Assembly: GCA_003140175.1 (NCBI GenBank)
Contig: PLJD01000096.1
Location: 5,656 to 69,655 of the forward strand
Source: Actinomycetota bacterium
Lineage (GTDB): Bacteria; Actinomycetota; Acidimicrobiia; IMCC26256; PALSA-555
Reading direction: 5' to 3'
Length of the DNA: 64,000 nt
The notes under the pieces are model-generated. The model was not told the origin of the DNA. It saw nothing but the letters and a program-made list of their open reading frames with translations, and searched no databases. Position 1 is the stretch's first letter. Each line of letters opens with the position of its first letter. Shown here in pieces: positions 3,831-45,775 of this stretch. Position numbers and translations under genes: made by a program.

Positions 3831-6800
3831 ATGGGGGCGATGACCGTGCCGGACAACGGTATGAACGAAGGGCTCCTCGAGGAGCTCTACGACCAGTACC
3901 GCCGCGACCCTGCGTCAGTCACCGACCGCTGGCGCGAGTACTTCGGAGCGGGCCCGGTCCCGAACGGGGCCCGACGCCTGGAGACCCCCGCCGGACTCGA
4001 GTGGGTACCGAACCCCTCGGATCCCAGGTCCCAGGCCGAGCCCGACCCAGGGATCGACGCCCCAACCCGCCCCGACCAGCCCGCGCCCACGCCCGCCCCG
4101 ACCGCCACGGTCGAAGCCCCGACCCCGATCCCAACCCCAATCCCAGCTCCGAGCGCGGCCCCGGCGGTCGAGCCCGCCCCAGACGAGGCCCAGGTGCTGC
4201 GGGGCGCGGCGGCTCGCACGGTGACGAACATGGAGGCGTCCCTCGGTGTCCCCACCGCGACGTCGGTCCGCACGGTGCCCGCGAAGCTGCTCGAGGTCAA
4301 CCGCCAGATCCTCAACAACCATCTGGGTCGTACCGGGCGGGGCAAGGTCAGCTTCACGCACTTGATCGCCTTCGCGGTCGTCCAGGCCGTGCGCGAGTAC
4401 CCCGGGATCAACGCCAGCTACGCGGCCCGCGACGACAAACCCACGGTGACCCGCCACCAGCACGTGAACCTGGGCCTGGCCGTCGACGTGACCCGCGACG
4501 ACGGGACCCGCACGTTGCTCGTCCCCAACATCAAGCACGCCGAGGAGCTCGACTTCGCCGCCTTCTGGAGCGCCTACGAGGAGCTCGTCGCCAAGGTGCG
4601 GGCCACCACGCTGTCTCCCGACGACTTCGCCGCCACGACCGGGACGATCACCAACCCCGGGATGATCGGAACCGTCCACTCCGTGCCCCGCCTCATGCCA
4701 GGTCAAGGCTTCATCGTGGGCGTCGGCGCGATCGGCTACCCGGCCGAGTACCAGGGCGCCGATCCCCAGATGATCGCCCAGCTCGGCGTCAGCCCGGTCA
4801 CGACACTCACCAACACCTACGACCACCGCATCATCGGGGGCGCCGAGAGCGGCGAGTTTCTCCGCCGGATCCACCAGCTGCTGCTGGGTGACGACGCGTT
4901 CTACGACGGGGTGTTCCGCAGCCTCGAAGTCCCCTACGAGCCGGCCCGCTGGAACCCGGACCAGAGCACGTTCGGCGAGGCCGCCGCGACCGACGAGAAG
5001 GTCGCGTCGGTCCATCAGCTCATCAACATGTACCGGGTACGCGGGCACTTGATCGCCAACCTCGACCCGCTCGGCCACTCCGAGCCGCATACGCACCCCG
5101 AGCTCGACATCGCGCATTACGGGCTCTCGATCTGGGATCTCGAGCGCCAGTTCCCAGTCGGCAGCCTCGGCGCGGGCCAGCTGCCCGAGGACCAGCTGCC
5201 CTTGCGAGACATCCTGGGGGTGCTGCGTGACGCGTACGCGCGCACGATCGGCGTCGAGTACATGCACATCCAGGAGCCCGACCAGAAGGCCTGGATCCAA
5301 GCGCGCGTTGAGAGCCCGACCGACGCGATCTCGCCTGACGACAAACGGCGCATCCTCCGGAAGCTGAACGCCGCCGAGGCGTTCGAGCGGTTCCTGGCGA
5401 CCAAGTACCTGGGCCAGAAGCGCTTCAGCCTCGAAGGCGCCGAGACCCTGATCCCGATGCTCGACGTGCTCGGCTCGGCCGCCGCCGACGCCGGCATGCA
5501 GGAGCTCGTCATGGGGATGGCGCATCGCGGCCGGTTGAACGTGCTGGCGAACGTGCTCGGCAAGTCCTACGCGCAGATCTTCCGCGAGTTCGAGGGCGAG
5601 CTCGACCCGTCGAGCACCCAGGGCTCCGGTGACGTCAAGTACCACCTCGGCCAGCTCGGCCAGCACCGTTCCCCCGCCGGCCACGAGGTGCTGCTGCGCC
5701 TGGCCGCCAACCCGAGCCACCTCGAGGCCGTCGACCCGGTGGTGGAGGGCATGGCGCGCGCCGAGGGCGACCGTTTCGGCGACCCGACCGGCGCGGTGTT
5801 GGCGGTGCTCGTGCACGGGGACGCCGCGTTCGCGGGCCAGGGTGTGGTGGCCGAGACGCTCAACCTCTCCGAGGTCGAGGGCTACGACGTGGGCGGCACG
5901 GTCCACGTCGTCGTCAACAACCAGCTGGGGTTCACGACCTCGCCCGAGTCCGGCCGCTCTGGTGTCTATGCCACCGACGTCGCCAAGATGGTCCAGGCGC
6001 CGATCTTTCACGTCAACGGCGACGACCCCGAGGCGTGTGTGCGGGTGATACGCCTGGCGTTCGAGTTCCGCCAGACGTTCCACAAGGATGTCGTCGTCGA
6101 TCTGGTGTGCTACCGCCGCTACGGCCACAACGAGGCCGACGAGCCGGCGTTCACCCAGCCCCGCATGTACGCCCTGATCGAGACCCACCCGTCGGTGCGC
6201 CAGCGGTTCACTGACCAGCTCGTCGCGCGCGGTGACCTCACCGACGACGAGTGCAGCGCGGCGGCCGCCGACTTTCGAGCCCAGCTCGACCGGGCCTTCG
6301 AAGAGACCCACGAACCGCACGACACCGGCCTCCCCGACGACTCGGCGATCCTCGATGAACCCGAACCGGAATCGGCGGCGGCGGCGGAGGCCGACACGGC
6401 GGTCGAGCCCGCCGTGCTCGAGCGGGTCGTGGGCGCGCTGACCACCTGGCCCGATTCGTTCCACGTCCATCCCAAGCTGGCCCGCATCCTGCTCACGGCG
6501 CGGGACGCCTTCGCCGCGGGACACGTCGACTGGGCGCTCGCCGAGGCGATGGCGTTCGGATCGCTGCTCTTGGAGGGCACGCCGGTGCGCGTCGCGGGCC
6601 AGGACACTCGGCGGGGCACGTTCAGTCAGCGTCACGGTGTCCTGGTCGACGCGGCGAACGAGGCCGAATATGTGCCGCTCAATCACCTCGACCCGAACCA
6701 GGCGCCGTTCCGTCTCTATGACTCGGTGCTGTCGGAGTACGCGGCGCTCGGCTTCGAGTACGGCTACTCGGTCGCCGCCCCCGAGGGCTTCACCGCATGG

Positions 6801-40256: not shown

Positions 40257-41765
40257 TCAGTCCCCGGGCAAACGCGACGCCGGCAGACCTAGCAGCGCGC
40301 TGCGAACAACATCAAGAAGCTCGTCATCGCTGAGTTCCAACGCCGACGGAGACACCAAGGCGCGCCTCCGCAACGATATGACGACCGCCATCAACATGAT
40401 GGCCGTGAGCGCGCCGCCCATGCTTGCAACTCCGACGTGGAGACCGATCCAGCCCACGAGCCCGCCGGCGAGACCTCCGCCAACAAAGAGAGGCACATCG
40501 CTGCGGATAAGACCGACGGCTACATAACCCTCGACGCCGTGTTCTCGAAGTGATTCGATGAGCACGCTCAAATGCCAGCCAATCAGCGCAGCACAGCCAG
40601 CCACAGCCCCAGCGACCACCGCTCCGCCGGCCGATGAGACGAAGGCGGACGGAAGAAACACCGTGGCACTCACAAGTACGGTCGCCCCAAGCACGATCGA
40701 GTAGGCCAGGCGACGTCGCGCGGAGTTGCTGACTGGCGGGGACAGCAGCGGAAGCCCGGTGGCGATAAGCACCACGAGTGGGCCCAAAGCCGGCTCACCA
40801 CGATGGAACACGATGAACGCTGCGGACCCCGCCACTACCAACGCCGCACGAGCTGCTGCCGGCCGAATGCGCACAAGGGCCAGCGCCCCCAGCCCGCCCA
40901 GACCCACCAAGGCCAGAAACTCAGCACTCGCGGGGAACTTCTCGGCGCTCGCGGTATCGGCCGAGATTCCGACCGCGAGAAGCACCCCTGCTGTGAGGGC
41001 CACGATTCCGGAGACTCGCCAAACCGATTTTGGGGCAAGCCGCCGCACGACGACCGGGTCGGCCACAAGTAGGAGCCCGACGAGCGCAAGGACCATTGCC
41101 CAGGTCCCCACGTCCCGCAGAACGACGTATCCCGCCACAAAGCCGAGAATTGCGAAGGGCAGCAACTCCGTCTCTGACCGAGTCAACTCTCGTATGTGGC
41201 GACCAAGCGAGCCGCCATCGGCGGCCCACAGGATCGCGGCGACTAGAACGTTGTTCACAGTCCAGTAGCCGACGACAGCGAGGATTGCGCTCAGCCCCAC
41301 GGCGATCCACTCGGATGCACCAGCGACAAACAGGCTGCGACCCAGCGCTGCGGCCGCAAGAGTTGCGAGCGTCGTACAGGACGCGTTGACTACAAGTTTC
41401 CGGAATGCACCGTTTCGGACGTGATCCCAATGCAAGCCAGCGGCAAGACCGCAAACGGCTGGGACCCAGAGAGGACCTCCCGCAACCGCCGTCGCCGCAG
41501 CCGCCGACAGAATCACCATGCTCGAGTTGATGGCGGTCTCATCGCCAAAGATTGCAACACGTTGCGTCGCGACCACGCTCAGGACAACGAGCGCAGCGAC
41601 GGTCCACGCGTCTACATCGCCCGGCCGGCCAAGGAGAAAGGCTCCGGCTAGCCCGGACGCCGCGGCGAGCCCAAGCACAACGGTCATCGCCTTCAAGACG
41701 ACCGACGGCCGCTCCGGAACTGGCCTTCGACCGATTTGTTCTGCAGCGACCACTCTCGGTTTCAC
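40257..41765 (-). CDS. Polytopic membrane protein of unknown function
   Basis: This 502-residue protein is mostly hydrophobic, with about 12-14 predicted helices in Ala/Val/Gly-rich segments. A short charged N-terminus comes first, and a cytoplasmic acidic end closes it (LSDDELLDVVRSALLGLP). I do not recognise a family. The N-terminal half (about 20-230) resembles in style the membrane sensory regions found ahead of HD-GYP or GGDEF domains, but no output domain follows. The GTG start overlaps the sigma factor stop by four bases, so it is probably the sigma factor's membrane partner, perhaps controlling it. The acyl-CoA carboxylase gene follows after 23 bases. Confidence 0.7.
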   Translation of the reverse strand: MKPRVVAAEQIGRRPVPERPSVVLKAMTVVLGLAAASGLAGAFLLGRPGDVDAWTVAALVVLSVVATQRVAIFGDETAINSSMVILSAAAATAVAGGPLWVPAVCGLAAGLHWDHVRNGAFRKLVVNASCTTLATLAAAALGRSLFVAGASEWIAVGLSAILAVVGYWTVNNVLVAAILWAADGGSLGRHIRELTRSETELLPFAILGFVAGYVVLRDVGTWAMVLALVGLLLVADPVVVRRLAPKSVWRVSGIVALTAGVLLAVGISADTASAEKFPASAEFLALVGLGGLGALALVRIRPAAARAALVVAGSAAFIVFHRGEPALGPLVVLIATGLPLLSPPVSNSARRRLAYSIVLGATVLVSATVFLPSAFVSSAGGAVVAGAVAGCAALIGWHLSVLIESLREHGVEGYVAVGLIRSDVPLFVGGGLAGGLVGWIGLHVGVASMGGALTAIMLMAVVISLRRRALVSPSALELSDDELLDVVRSALLGLPASRLPGD

Positions 41766-42478
41766 GAGTCACCCCCCGGCGGCACGAGCCGATCGCCATA
41801 GAGGTCCTGCAGCTGCTGATAGCAGTCGGCACATGCCACGCACGTGGACAGGTGCGCTGAAATCTGGGCCCTGACCTTGCGACTGAGCTGGCCGCGCAGA
41901 TACCGGCCGAGTTTCGAACGTACCGGTCGGCAGGTGCGGCACCCTCCCGATGCCGTGTGCTCGATGCAGAGGCCGACCAGCTCTTCCCGAGCCCGGTGTG
42001 CCCTCTGTCGCGCCGCGACCGGCGTGATCCCAAGCTGCTCAGACAACTCCAGAAAGCCAAGCCCCTCCACGTAGCGAAGGACAAGCACTTCTCGGCTAGT
42101 TCGCGAGAGGGACTCAAACGCCTCGCGAGCGAGCACCGTGTCTAGCTCCGTCAGTACACGTTCCTCGGGGCCTGCCTCGGTCGCGGCGATGTGCTCGGCG
42201 GCATCTGCCCCAACAAAACGTCGGCTCCCCTGCTGTCGAAGTTGGTTCCGCCATAGATTTCGGACCGACGTCAGCAAGTAGGCCTTAACGTTTGACGCGT
42301 CCTCGATGTATTGAGCCCGGCGCAGGACATTGAGAATTGCGGTGTGCGTCAGGTCCTCGGCCTCGGCATCGCTACGAACAAGCCGCCTCGCAACTCGGAG
42401 CGCATCGCCTCGATACTGCGCGATGACCTGATCGAGTTCGTGATTTGGAGACCACTCCGCTCCACCCGGGCTCGACAT
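41762..42478 (-). CDS. ECF-like sigma factor with Cys/His-rich C-terminal tail
   Basis: This 238-residue protein has sigma region 2 (DQVIAQYRGDALRVARRL to AYLLTSVRNLWRN) and region 4 (LSRTSREVLVLRYVEGLGF, then ITPVAARQRAHRAREEL). The extra C-terminal domain is rich in Cys and His: CIEHTASGGCRTCRP, then SAHLSTCVACADC. That pattern (H-x3-C-x2-C) is the zinc-binding motif normally found in separate anti-sigma factors, so this sigma may carry its own regulator or a metal/redox sensor. I chose the ATG at 42478 (GGGAG 7 bases upstream) over an ATG nine codons earlier. A membrane protein gene is translationally coupled. Confidence 0.85.
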   Translation of the reverse strand: MSSPGGAEWSPNHELDQVIAQYRGDALRVARRLVRSDAEAEDLTHTAILNVLRRAQYIEDASNVKAYLLTSVRNLWRNQLRQQGSRRFVGADAAEHIAATEAGPEERVLTELDTVLAREAFESLSRTSREVLVLRYVEGLGFLELSEQLGITPVAARQRAHRAREELVGLCIEHTASGGCRTCRPVRSKLGRYLRGQLSRKVRAQISAHLSTCVACADCYQQLQDLYGDRLVPPGGDS

Positions 42479-42702
42479 CGACCCGCTCCCACCCTCCTGC
42501 CACATCGAGGCGGGTAGGAAACTACCGGTGACGAGGTTCGATTGCTATGGGTGATCGCGGAAGGAAGGGATCGTTTCTATGTCACACACCTCGCGCGCTG
42601 GTGTCCTGCGTGCCTGCCCGGCCACAGCGCTTCCACGGTCGGTCCAGACGTCTCGAGGGATCCCCAAATCCGTCGGTGCTCGGCCTGTGTCGGCGGGTTG
42701 GG

Positions 42703-42714
42703 TACCGTGAGGTC
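42703..42714 (+). promoter_or_regulatory. Leaderless-type -10 box of the DUF5317 gene
   Basis: TACCGT (42703-42708) lies 6 bases before the GTG at 42715. The 236-base gap shared with the sigma factor must also hold that gene's promoter, for which I see no clear box. Confidence 0.4.
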
Positions 42715-43269
42715 GTGTGGCTGCTGATCGCTACCGCGTTGGTCAGCCTTTTCGTCATCAGCCTCACGCACGGAAGTTTCGGCGAGTTGACAAGGTTGCG
42801 GGTCGCGGCGCCGTGGCTCCTCGCCACAGGACTCGTTGTCCAGGCGATCCTCGAATACATCGACATTCCAAGAAGCGACATCGATACCGTCGGTTATGGC
42901 TTGCTGATGGCCTCGTACGTCCTGATCCTCGCCTTCTGCGTTGCGAATATTCGAACCCGCGGATTCGGCGTGATCGCAATCGGCATAGCTCTAAACGCTC
43001 TCGTCATCGGACTCAATCAGGGCATGCCCACTAAGCCTGTGGGTGATGGTCCCCATGGCAACCGCGTCTTCAAACCCGTCGTTCAGACGGTCAAACACCG
43101 CCAGGAACGGAGCGATGATCTGTTGCGGTTTCTCGACGACCGAATCCTTTTTCCAAAGCCCTTCGACGAGTTGGTGTCGTTCGGCGACCTCGTCATGGCC
43201 GTAGGTATCTGCGAGTTGATGTACTACGCGAGCCGGCGGCCCGCAGGCGCTCCCGCCGTCACCGCGTGA
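42715..43269 (+). CDS. DUF5317 family membrane protein
   Basis: This 184-residue protein has four or five hydrophobic helices, starting WLLIATALVSLFVISL. The segment NALVIGLNQGMPTKPVG and the final helix AVGICELMYYASRR are of the kind seen in DUF5317. A hydrophilic stretch (PVVQTVKHRQERSDDLLRFL) lies between helices 4 and 5 and ends in a D-x-x-x-F-P segment. No function is known for the family. The start is taken as the GTG at 42715; the open frame extends upstream without homology. It converges on the HD-GYP-like gene with an 11-base overlap of the ends. Confidence 0.78.
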   Translation: MWLLIATALVSLFVISLTHGSFGELTRLRVAAPWLLATGLVVQAILEYIDIPRSDIDTVGYGLLMASYVLILAFCVANIRTRGFGVIAIGIALNALVIGLNQGMPTKPVGDGPHGNRVFKPVVQTVKHRQERSDDLLRFLDDRILFPKPFDELVSFGDLVMAVGICELMYYASRRPAGAPAVTA

Positions 43270-44437
43270 GCAGTCCTCGACCTCGAAGGACCGATTCGAG
43301 CGCCGTCAGAACATTGCCGTCGTACACATAGGCCGGGCCGGTGAACAGAGCCTCGACCGCCCACGATGCGTGGGCATCGTCGCCCCCGGTCAGTTCGTCG
43401 TAGGCACTTGCGACCTTGAGGATCTGACCCATCAGTACCGCTCGGGTTTCCGACGGCGGATTCGAAGGGCGATGAAGCCCCGGTTCGGCGGCCACGATGT
43501 CGCCGGCATTGGCGAGCGCGTTGCTTGAGCGGAGCATGTCTGCGCCGGCCCTCGCGACGTCGGTGGCATCCAGCTTTAGTCCGGTCGGCGGCTCGTCCAG
43601 GGACACTGCGCCGAGGTGATGCAGCCAAGCCGCGGTCTCGAGATCCCGGAGGCTGGCGTTGCTGACGCCGAGCTCTTGTCCGAGCCCAACGGATAGACCC
43701 GCCACCCGCTCAACATGTCCTTTGCGGGCTAGGCCACCGAGCTCTGGCGCGACTCCGAGCGCTTGAACCGTTTGCTGGAACGTTCGACGAGTTCGGAGTA
43801 ACAGCTCGTAGGAGTACCACGCAGCCAGGAGCGGAACCGAAAATAAGATTGGGCCCCAAAGGCCAAGCCCGCCTTGCCCGCCGATACCACCGTAACCAAT
43901 TGCCATCAGCATTCCGCTGGTCGCGAGAGCTAGGTCAGCTCCACGACCCCGCCAGCGCGCCACGTACCCCTCCCGCAACAGAGTTACGAGATCGGCAACC
44001 ACGAGTTCTGCGACTGCGGCTGCCGCCAGGGCACAGAAAACGACGAGTCGCGGATCTGAAGTAGCGCCGACGCGCATAGTCAGCTGAAACGCTGCGCCGG
44101 CACCGAGGCCCTCTGCGAGGTATTCAGCGAGCAGCAAGACTCGGCTTGGTATCCCACGCGGCTCCGTTCGCAGTGTCACGGCAACCACGGGAGCGAGGCT
44201 CGCGATCGCGACGAACTCGCCAGGCGACGCTGATCGCAGCAGTACGACGATGACCGCGAGGCCAACCGGAAGAGGGCTGCGCTGGTCGGGTCTCAACTCA
44301 AATATGTACCCGGCAACGAGAGCAGTACCGATCACGATCAGGTTGGTCGTGTCGGTGCTCGCGCCAGCAGCAATGGCGATGAGCAGGGTCAGGAAACATG
44401 CTCCGGCAAGAAGGAATAGGCGCCGCGCCTGGTTCAT
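43259..44437 (-). CDS. Membrane protein with degenerate HD-GYP domain
   Basis: This 392-residue protein has a membrane region of about eight helices (about 5-215) and a C-terminal HD-GYP-like domain. Active HD-GYP phosphodiesterases for cyclic di-GMP have L-L-H-D-I-G-K and H-H-E-x-x-D-G-x-G-Y-P. Here the first reads WLHHLGAVS (Asp to His, Lys to Ala), and the second is replaced by a sequence with no H-H-E or G-Y-P. The late segment ILKVASAYDELTGG is retained but with Ser for the first Asp. It is therefore almost certainly not a phosphodiesterase and may be a receptor or scaffold. The ATG at 44437 overlaps a short reading frame (ATGA) that begins with a signal-peptide-like ORF. Confidence 0.75.
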   Translation of the reverse strand: MNQARRLFLLAGACFLTLLIAIAAGASTDTTNLIVIGTALVAGYIFELRPDQRSPLPVGLAVIVVLLRSASPGEFVAIASLAPVVAVTLRTEPRGIPSRVLLLAEYLAEGLGAGAAFQLTMRVGATSDPRLVVFCALAAAAVAELVVADLVTLLREGYVARWRGRGADLALATSGMLMAIGYGGIGGQGGLGLWGPILFSVPLLAAWYSYELLLRTRRTFQQTVQALGVAPELGGLARKGHVERVAGLSVGLGQELGVSNASLRDLETAAWLHHLGAVSLDEPPTGLKLDATDVARAGADMLRSSNALANAGDIVAAEPGLHRPSNPPSETRAVLMGQILKVASAYDELTGGDDAHASWAVEALFTGPAYVYDGNVLTALESVLRGRGLLTR

Positions 44438-44718
44438 GAGACCGTCTCCGTGCCATCGGCACACTCGCAACGACACGCCTCGGGCGGAGGTCGCTGTTCG
44501 CAGTGGCCAAGATACGCGAGCGCGGCACGCTGGGTGGGGAACGGTGCTGGATATGAGGACGTCGGTATCGGCGATAGGTCTCGGCTCTCGCCGATGCCCG
44601 CCGCCGGCTGAGGCAGCATCGAGACTCCCGAGTGCGACCACATCTTGGCGATCGCCCAGGTGTGTGGAAAAGGCGGATTGGGCAGGGTCCCCGATCCAAT
44701 CAGATGTTTCTCGTGGCG
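44434..44718 (-). pseudogene. In-frame extension of the small ORF, after an amber codon
   Basis: This frame is the same as that of the 29-codon ORF just upstream, separated from it only by a TAG at 44719-44721. It stays open for 94 codons and ends in a Cys-rich stretch (ACRCECADG). The stop overlaps the start of the HD-GYP-like gene as ATGA. Together with the upstream piece it would make one exported protein of about 124 residues. Either the amber codon is a nonsense mutation or sequencing error, or this part is untranslated spacer that is open by chance. Confidence 0.35.
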
Positions 44719-44808
44719 CTAGCGGAGGCCCTTGCCGGCACCGCCCGCGAGGACAAGTGCAGCAATGCTCGACCCGACAAGCGCAAGACGGACGATCAGC
44801 TTCTTCAT
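44719..44808 (-). CDS. 29-residue signal-peptide-like small protein
   Basis: The ORF reads from MKKLIVRLALVG through a hydrophobic stretch (SSIAALVLAGG) to AGKGLR and a TAG stop. A strong ribosome binding site, AGGGGG, lies about 8 bases upstream. The shape is that of a Sec signal or a single membrane helix with a positively charged start. It could be a free-standing exported or membrane peptide, or the signal peptide of a longer protein cut by the amber codon, because the same frame continues 94 codons further. Its close coupling to the HD-GYP-like membrane protein suggests they function together. I do not know a family for it. Confidence 0.5.
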   Translation of the reverse strand: MKKLIVRLALVGSSIAALVLAGGAGKGLR

Positions 44809-45094
44809 AGCGAATTCCCCCTCTCTGAAAGCTCTCCTACCGGCTTCGCTATCCCCGGTGAGGTGAACGCTCCGCTGATTCCCAACTGTTTGGGTTCCGT
44901 CGAGGCCCTGCCCATTCGACCCTCCCGGGCTCTCAACACAGGGCTCAGCTCGAACTCAAGCACAGGAGCAACTCTACGCGCCCCTGTAACTCTGCCGACG
45001 CCCAGCGGCGGTAGCCGCGATGTGTTGGGATCCACGTCACACGTCCGGGAGTTCCGTATCCTCCAAGCGGGACTAGTCGAGCTAAGGCGGCCCG
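44809..45094. other. Intergenic region with a structured minus-strand leader
   Basis: There is no gene in this 286-base divergent spacer. On the minus strand, just upstream of the small ORF, two hairpins can form: CCCAA/TTGGG around a 4-base loop (44881-44894) and ACCGG/CCGGT around an 11-base loop (44839-44859). I compared the region by eye with cyclic di-GMP and cyclic di-AMP riboswitches and found no convincing match. The plus side carries AAGGCGG just before the 45095 start. Confidence 0.35.
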
Positions 45095-45775
45095 ATGACC
45101 GAGCAGGGGATCGCGGGACTCGATGTCCAGGCGATCGAAAGTGAGCTCACTCGCCTTCCTGAGATTGTCGCCTGTCGCATCGTCGCTGATCCCCTCGGGC
45201 GCCCGCTCGAAGTTCATGTCTTGGCGCACCCTGGGAAACACCCAAAGCAGGTAGTGCGTGACATCCAATCGGTCGCTTTGGCGTCGTTCGGCCTTGAGAT
45301 CGATCGGCGGATCGTTTCAGTCGTTCAGCTTGGGCCCAGTGGTGCAGAGGGGGTCGAGCCGTCGCCAGCCCCGTTGGCCCGGATTGCGATCGGTGCAATT
45401 CAGTCGCAGTTGGAGGGGAAGCGGGCGACGATCCGTGTCACGCTTACATCGGGCAGCGTTGATGCGACGGGGTTCGCTGAGGGATCGATTGCGGCAGCGA
45501 CCCGTTTGCGTCTGGTCGCGACTGCGACGCTCGACGCGCTCCGCCAGCTACACAACTCGGCAGAGGCCATCGAAGTGGAGCACGCGTCCATCGGCAAGGT
45601 GGGTAGCCAGGAAGTCGTCGCCGTAGCCCTCATCCTCGTCGATCCACCACACGAGTACGAGCTGGTCGGGACCGCCCTGGCGCGCCAGTCGCCCGACGTC
45701 GCGACCGTCCGAGCAGTCCTCGACGCAGTCAACCGTCGGATCTCGTATCTGTCGGGAGAGCACACGGTCTCCTGA
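45095..45775 (+). CDS. Conserved hypothetical protein of two alpha/beta domains
   Basis: I do not recognise a named family for this 226-residue soluble protein. The first half (about 1-85) begins LDVQAIESELTRLPEIV and contains HVLAHPGKHPKQVVRDIQSVA and IDRRIVSVVQLG, a pattern I associate with small actinobacterial regulatory-type domains. The second half (about 95-220) repeats an alpha/beta layout (RATIRVTLTSGSVDATG to ATVRAVLDAVNRRIS). No catalytic motif or metal site is seen. The ATG at 45095 follows AAGGCGG. A glycosyltransferase gene follows 19 bases downstream, so the two are probably in one operon. Confidence 0.65.
   Translation: MTEQGIAGLDVQAIESELTRLPEIVACRIVADPLGRPLEVHVLAHPGKHPKQVVRDIQSVALASFGLEIDRRIVSVVQLGPSGAEGVEPSPAPLARIAIGAIQSQLEGKRATIRVTLTSGSVDATGFAEGSIAAATRLRLVATATLDALRQLHNSAEAIEVEHASIGKVGSQEVVAVALILVDPPHEYELVGTALARQSPDVATVRAVLDAVNRRISYLSGEHTVS

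Follow-up and report, generated by a model that had tools for sequence, protein, structure and literature searches.

A conserved micropeptide gene linked to MASE9-type membrane sensors and DUF5317 in Actinomycetota and Bacillota

Results

Organization of the locus

The window analysed here, i.e. the complete stretch of 64,000 nucleotides from an Actinomycetota bacterium of the order IMCC26256, contains a compact group of genes (Table 1) consisting of PEP, encoding a micropeptide, H2, encoding a membrane protein with a degenerate HD-GYP domain, DUF5317, and u, encoding a soluble protein. PEP is located upstream of H2, the start of the divergent gene u lies 286 bp beyond PEP, and DUF5317 and H2 are convergent with their ends overlapping by 11 bp. 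The convergent pair with overlapping ends, a signal-like ORF of 29 residues and an ECF-type sigma factor gene diverging from DUF5317 had all been described in the initial annotation of the locus and are found in place, the small ORF being, beyond that description, an independent conserved gene. The proposed ATGA coupling of H2 to the frame of the small ORF did not hold, as the overlap exists only with a 69-aa frame that continues past the TAG stop codon of PEP and is incidental. This 69-aa frame shows no similarity to H1, the MASE9-type membrane HD protein described below, or to the corresponding spacer of the sister species, and was rejected both as a gene and as a remnant of H1. No Rfam element reaches the gathering threshold in the window.

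The region from 37.5 to 44.8 kb had also been suggested to form one regulatory system; this suggestion fails, the sigma factor and a 502-aa membrane protein encoded after it (40257-41765, minus strand) accompanying the module only within the same family. The 502-aa protein has no Pfam match and shows BLAST similarity to the MASE9-like N-terminal half of H1, suggesting that in this family the sigma factor, too, may receive its input from a MASE9-type sensor. A carboxylase cluster and enoyl-CoA hydratase genes are frequent neighbours in Actinomycetota and are absent at the Bacillota modules examined. Relatives carry a second enoyl-CoA hydratase gene between DUF5317 and the sigma factor/carboxylase genes (e.g. 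L063, 8934-9695), which is missing from the window at 42505-42715.

Table 1. Features of the module and its surroundings in the window.
Feature	Position	Strand	Remarks
PEP, 29-aa micropeptide gene, MKKLIVRLALVGSSIAALVLAGGAGKGLR	44719..44808	-	Homologues in the order; conserved AGGGGG Shine-Dalgarno
Shine-Dalgarno region of PEP, AGAGAGGGGGAATTCGCT	44809..44830	-	AGGGGG type, common to the aligned PEP genes
Spacer block after PEP, GGATCGGGGACCCTGCCCAATCC	44660..44690	-	Resembles the PEP-H1 spacer motif nCCGRGGYCYTG of relatives
H2, 392-aa MASE9-like membrane protein with degenerate HD-GYP domain	43259..44437	-	
DUF5317, 184 aa, GTG start	42715..43269	+	PF17248, 71.8 bits
u, 226-aa soluble protein, divergent from PEP	45095..45775	+	LeuA-regulatory-domain-like fold
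ECF sigma factor with C-terminal zinc-finger	41762..42505	-	Family-level neighbour, outside the core module

Conservation of PEP

Judged by how it is conserved, PEP is a real, previously unnamed tiny gene with a strong Shine-Dalgarno sequence, short enough that annotation pipelines are likely to overlook it. Homologues of 28-30 aa occur throughout the window's order, ORFs of the same pattern and length lying at the same place in most related genomes, and across all copies the length ranges from 24 to 31 aa. The Smith-Waterman scores of these ORFs are 64-117, compared to approximately 20-35 for the best unrelated small ORFs. Within the family, the copies of the window and of L066 differ with a dN of 0.10 and a dS of 1.04 (dN/dS about 0.1), and among eleven copies the differences per codon position are 0.38, 0.27 and 0.59, i.e. 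concentrated at the third. The peptide shows a core, LxLAGGA, followed by a basic/aromatic tail. In 48 copies from two phyla the residues L-A-G-G-A are conserved to 88-98%, four or five mostly basic and aromatic residues follow the core in 42 of the 48, and there are hardly any acidic residues. For PEP, all matches in Pfam and NCBIfam stay below the respective cut-off, the best including LPAM_1 (15.9 of 20 bits) and NprX (13.6 of 75 bits).

Linkage within the order and across two phyla

Neighbourhood mapping in the window's order revealed a conserved arrangement in which u is divergent from PEP, followed by H1, H2 and a convergent DUF5317. Among the 58 genomes of the order, 50 encode DUF5317 and 42 an H2 homologue, and a convergent DUF5317 lies within 600 bp at all 36 H2 loci tested. 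On the class level, 47 of 50 PEP matches are followed on the same strand by a homologue of H1 (46) or H2 (one), with 45 of the 47 pairs spaced within about 200 bp. In the window's genus, H1 is located on another contig together with its own PEP, and the original locus retains PEP and H2. The window can be read as carrying a rearranged version of a conserved module, presumably for signalling at the membrane, composed of u, PEP, H1, (H2) and DUF5317. Solitary PEP-H1 pairs with no u, H2 or DUF5317 close by are found in the window's own genome and elsewhere (among them L158, 5233-6750, and L061, 3739-5214), and at some module loci (L094, L098, L100) no PEP was found. The DUF5317 proteins of L163, a genome of the same class, and of L171 (Acidimicrobiia) are nearly identical.

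An H1 profile scan of named genomes recovered loci that combine u, PEP and H1, often along with DUF5317, in Coriobacteriia, Clostridia and other groups. Scanning 1.72 Mb of the resulting loci with a peptide pattern gave 12 matches, all 12 at H1 genes, with most of these already known when the pattern was composed. We therefore applied a second test relying on ribosome-binding site, length, charge and hydrophobicity alone, which detected a small ORF upstream of 55 of 96 H1 genes compared to 0 of 63 u, 0 of 71 DUF5317 and 1 of 81 H2 genes. The lone H2 positive belongs to the sister species, in which H1 is likewise found at another locus, and the 41 H1 negatives include many Streptomyces-type loci without u or loci with a profile-detected PEP failing the strict criteria.

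Within the Bacillota, DUF5317 scores above cut-off in 77 of 249 genomes. An H1-type gene adjoins DUF5317 at 14 of 20 loci and PEP is present at 13 of these 14, usually in a single operon u-PEP-H1-DUF5317. The PEP profile matches 61 of the 249 genomes, 58 of which also carry DUF5317 (Fisher p = 4.5e-36, a value uncorrected for phylogeny and obtained with a profile that includes some of these Bacillota sequences), and 54 of 62 PEP matches lie 1.36-3.2 kb upstream of DUF5317 on the same strand. In some clades DUF5317 occurs with no PEP detectable, as is the case in 19 of the 77 DUF5317 genomes. These data give a strongly positive answer to the check proposed in the initial annotation, namely whether a short signal-like ORF, DUF5317 and an HD-GYP-like membrane protein are repeatedly linked in Actinobacteria and Firmicutes. 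One module (L300) carries two different PEP-like ORFs on opposite strands (1176-1334, plus; 4081-4179, minus).

Sensor and output domains of H1 and H2

The window H2 is, as judged from its motifs, catalytically dead as an HD-GYP enzyme, in line with the loss of HD and GYP residues noted earlier. Its HD_5 score of 21.2 bits stays under the cut-off of 27.2 bits, and it lacks the metal-binding and catalytic motif HDxGK. The alignment with relatives shows LHHLG in place of the HD motif, i.e. HH for HD, in the window protein and in most members of the order. The HHExxDGxGYP segment is absent from the window protein, and VASAYDEL replaces VADxxDAL with loss of the final aspartate. With an hhalign probability of 98%, the N-terminal half of H2 is a homologue of the half of H1 that is of the MASE9 type. 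This profile-profile match is the only tie of the window H2 to MASE9, a domain not among the Pfam matches listed for it.

H1 combines an HD domain with a membrane half that is probably a sensor of the MASE9 type. The MASE9 cut-off (PF20972, 24.3 bits) is passed by several H1 proteins (38.3, 26.1 and 24.8 bits) and by one GGDEF-EAL protein, with others scoring below, including the H1 encoded in the window's own genome (15.1 bits). The complete residue set H..HDxGK..H..HHExxDGxGYP..D is present in most H1 proteins of Bacillota and in several of Actinomycetota, and HHE/GYP is lost from H1 in the window's order, including the H1 on contig C112 of the same genome. As the Bacillota proteins mostly retain all catalytic residues of the HD-GYP signature, it is the window's order that is characterised by their loss. 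H1 proteins from the order (e.g. L066, 7539-8870) furthermore end, behind a proline-rich linker, in the invariant motif GSAGLGDL. This C-terminal motif resembles a docking motif and does not occur in the tails of Bacillota H1. The window's own genome has 17 GGDEF matches.

In several Actinomycetota loci a variant of the peptide, PEP-B (...LGAGRKW), precedes MASE9-GGDEF-EAL proteins beside DUF5317. H2 has a MASE9-like half as well. PEP thus goes with the membrane sensor domain, and the catalytic part varies.

DUF5317 and u

The DUF5317 domain is assigned with an E-value of 7.9e-20 (cut-off 25 bits). Its AlphaFold2 model, based on 60 sequences, has a mean pLDDT of 94.5 and shows five predicted membrane helices plus a small beta subdomain, and a comparison with the PDB gave no fold match, none being better than E 2.9. 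Residues D142 and D158 and an SxGD...G motif had raised the idea that DUF5317 might be an LspA-like aspartyl protease cutting the lipobox-like LAGGA of PEP; this idea was rejected, no LspA being present among the fold matches or the 25 Pfam families listed. DUF5317 could still represent a new protease fold. A structural match to the C-terminal domain of LeuA was found for the AlphaFold2 model of u (Foldseek, 1sr9, E 1.5e-5; low whole-chain TM-score of 0.35), indicating a fold like that of the LeuA regulatory domain, and five of 45 u members match LeuA_dimer weakly. No convincing sequence relatives of DUF5317 or u were found in the PDB.

Discussion

We describe the genes of a putative membrane signalling module in two bacterial phyla, how they are conserved and linked, how far they co-occur, and which of their motifs are intact. 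It is possible that PEP has to do with a receptor or with processing, as raised initially from the sequence. The reading we favour, with our confidence evenly balanced, is that PEP is a dedicated membrane micropeptide partner of MASE9 receptors acting in trans, with DUF5317 as third component, either in one complex with them or in the maturation of PEP, and all of them jointly setting a c-di-GMP-related output. According to this model, H1 would join a MASE9 membrane sensor to an HD-GYP c-di-GMP phosphodiesterase domain, and the module's second version would have GGDEF-EAL domains driven by the MASE9 sensor. PEP, predicted to insert into the membrane as a single helix, would be the trans partner of the sensor domain, and the polytopic DUF5317 may present, mature or stabilise PEP, presumably through physical contact. 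Together, PEP, the MASE9 sensor and DUF5317 would then act on c-di-GMP levels or a related output. In the window's order, with the catalytic site of H1 eroded and H2 dead, the module probably works via protein-protein signalling. The DUF5317 genomes with no detectable PEP, the module loci at which none was found and the Streptomyces pairs described below count against the partner reading.

A more far-reaching version, which we put forward only tentatively and hold somewhat less firmly, considers PEP, MASE9 and DUF5317 as an unrecognised signalling class spanning two phyla, in which a peptide of 24-31 residues, either embedded in the membrane or processed by DUF5317, would be a specific ligand or subunit of MASE9 directly switching HD-GYP or GGDEF-EAL output. 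If true, this would constitute peptide-controlled c-di-GMP signalling. MASE domains are common on c-di-GMP enzymes, with inputs known for few of them, and PEP beside MASE9 proteins in Actinomycetota and Bacillota, mostly accompanied by DUF5317, represents a concrete and testable candidate for such an input. The model would furthermore provide a first functional context for DUF5317. The window's order, having lost the enzymatic output and kept the peptide, the sensor domains and DUF5317, would offer a naturally occurring example of how a c-di-GMP receptor becomes a signalling protein devoid of catalysis.

The main rival, which we consider unlikely, though less so than the others, takes PEP as a precursor from which a very short signal for export is released, through a cut after LAGGA by signal peptidase or DUF5317, so that the tail of four to five residues would be sensed by MASE9 in a manner comparable to agr or ComX. 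The strong conservation of LAGGA next to a tail that varies in sequence and is nearly constant in length also fits a cleaved precursor and as such counts against the partner reading. PEP has a basic n-region and a hydrophobic h-region, the precursor, a polytopic protein and a polytopic receptor are encoded together, and a single genome, G000, has modules with different tails (GKGLR and GRTWK). Against an exported signal, the chemistry of the tail is conserved rather than hypervariable, and RKW is common to PEP-B tails across loci, which suits membrane-interface anchoring as well. Moreover, neither the sequence nor the fold of DUF5317 gives a match to a protease, the module is without an exporter, and the NCBIfam peptide-pheromone families do not match PEP.

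A role as a leader peptide in cis, in which translation or stalling at PEP would govern translation of the receptor gene behind it, is improbable to a clearly greater degree. The position of the core, four to five codons ahead of the stop codon, would suit such a role, as would a short conserved motif in the PEP-H1 spacer, which reads nCCGRGGYCYTG in the order and GTCGGYCC in many Bacillota and behind which a hairpin at times covers the ribosome-binding site of H1; the motif is seen in L334, L337, L375, L377, L385, L386, L390 and others, with a similar block in the window. The consensus structure of the spacer is, however, weak with one covarying pair, and the strict motif occurs in nine of 20 fresh Bacillota loci and is thus not universal. 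On these grounds a conserved RNA between PEP and H1 was rejected and retained as a minor rival only. PEP is also conserved on the protein level across very different base compositions, and in L111, L112 and L115 it lies beside DUF5317 although no MASE9 gene comes directly after it, an observation that favours trans action and speaks against PEP being purely a leader peptide.

It is very improbable that the genes adjoin each other on other grounds, for instance because they are transcribed together or rearrange slowly, with PEP functionally unconnected to H1 or DUF5317: the whole neighbourhood is syntenic in the window's order, so that linkage there proves little by itself, but the linkage spans two phyla with different flanking genes and persists with swapped output domains and in relocated solitary pairs.

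Returning to the partner model, the nearest described system is the tandem gene pair HdgA/HdgB of Streptomyces venezuelae, both membrane HD-GYP proteins with the second being degenerate, which are confined to the membrane fraction and whose mutants show no developmental phenotype (PMC6205966). Streptomyces pairs of the H1/H2 type are homologous to H1 and H2 of the module; in contrast to the latter, no PEP, u or DUF5317 was found within about 6 kb of them, showing that MASE9 HD-GYP proteins can exist free of PEP. A literature search, with subscription literature and preprints outside its scope, returned no work on DUF5317 and none on the MASE9 domain, including any micropeptide or DUF5317 partner.

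In the agr and ComQXP systems a small precursor, a polytopic membrane protein and a polytopic receptor are encoded together, with a histidine kinase as receptor output. The module differs from these in its c-di-GMP-type output, and no AgrB or ComQ homologue was seen in it. MgrB, SafA and Prli42 are tiny membrane proteins of a single helix, each modulating a larger sensor or signalling complex; their sequences and targets are unlike those of PEP, and to our knowledge none of them regulates c-di-GMP enzymes. The polytopic MASE1 domain of the c-di-GMP enzyme DgcE of E. coli is reported to take its input from a dedicated GTPase partner system (PMC6510439). DgcE resembles the module as modelled here in having a MASE-type polytopic domain served by dedicated partner proteins, these partners being a GTPase system in DgcE as opposed to a peptide of 25 residues in the module reported here.
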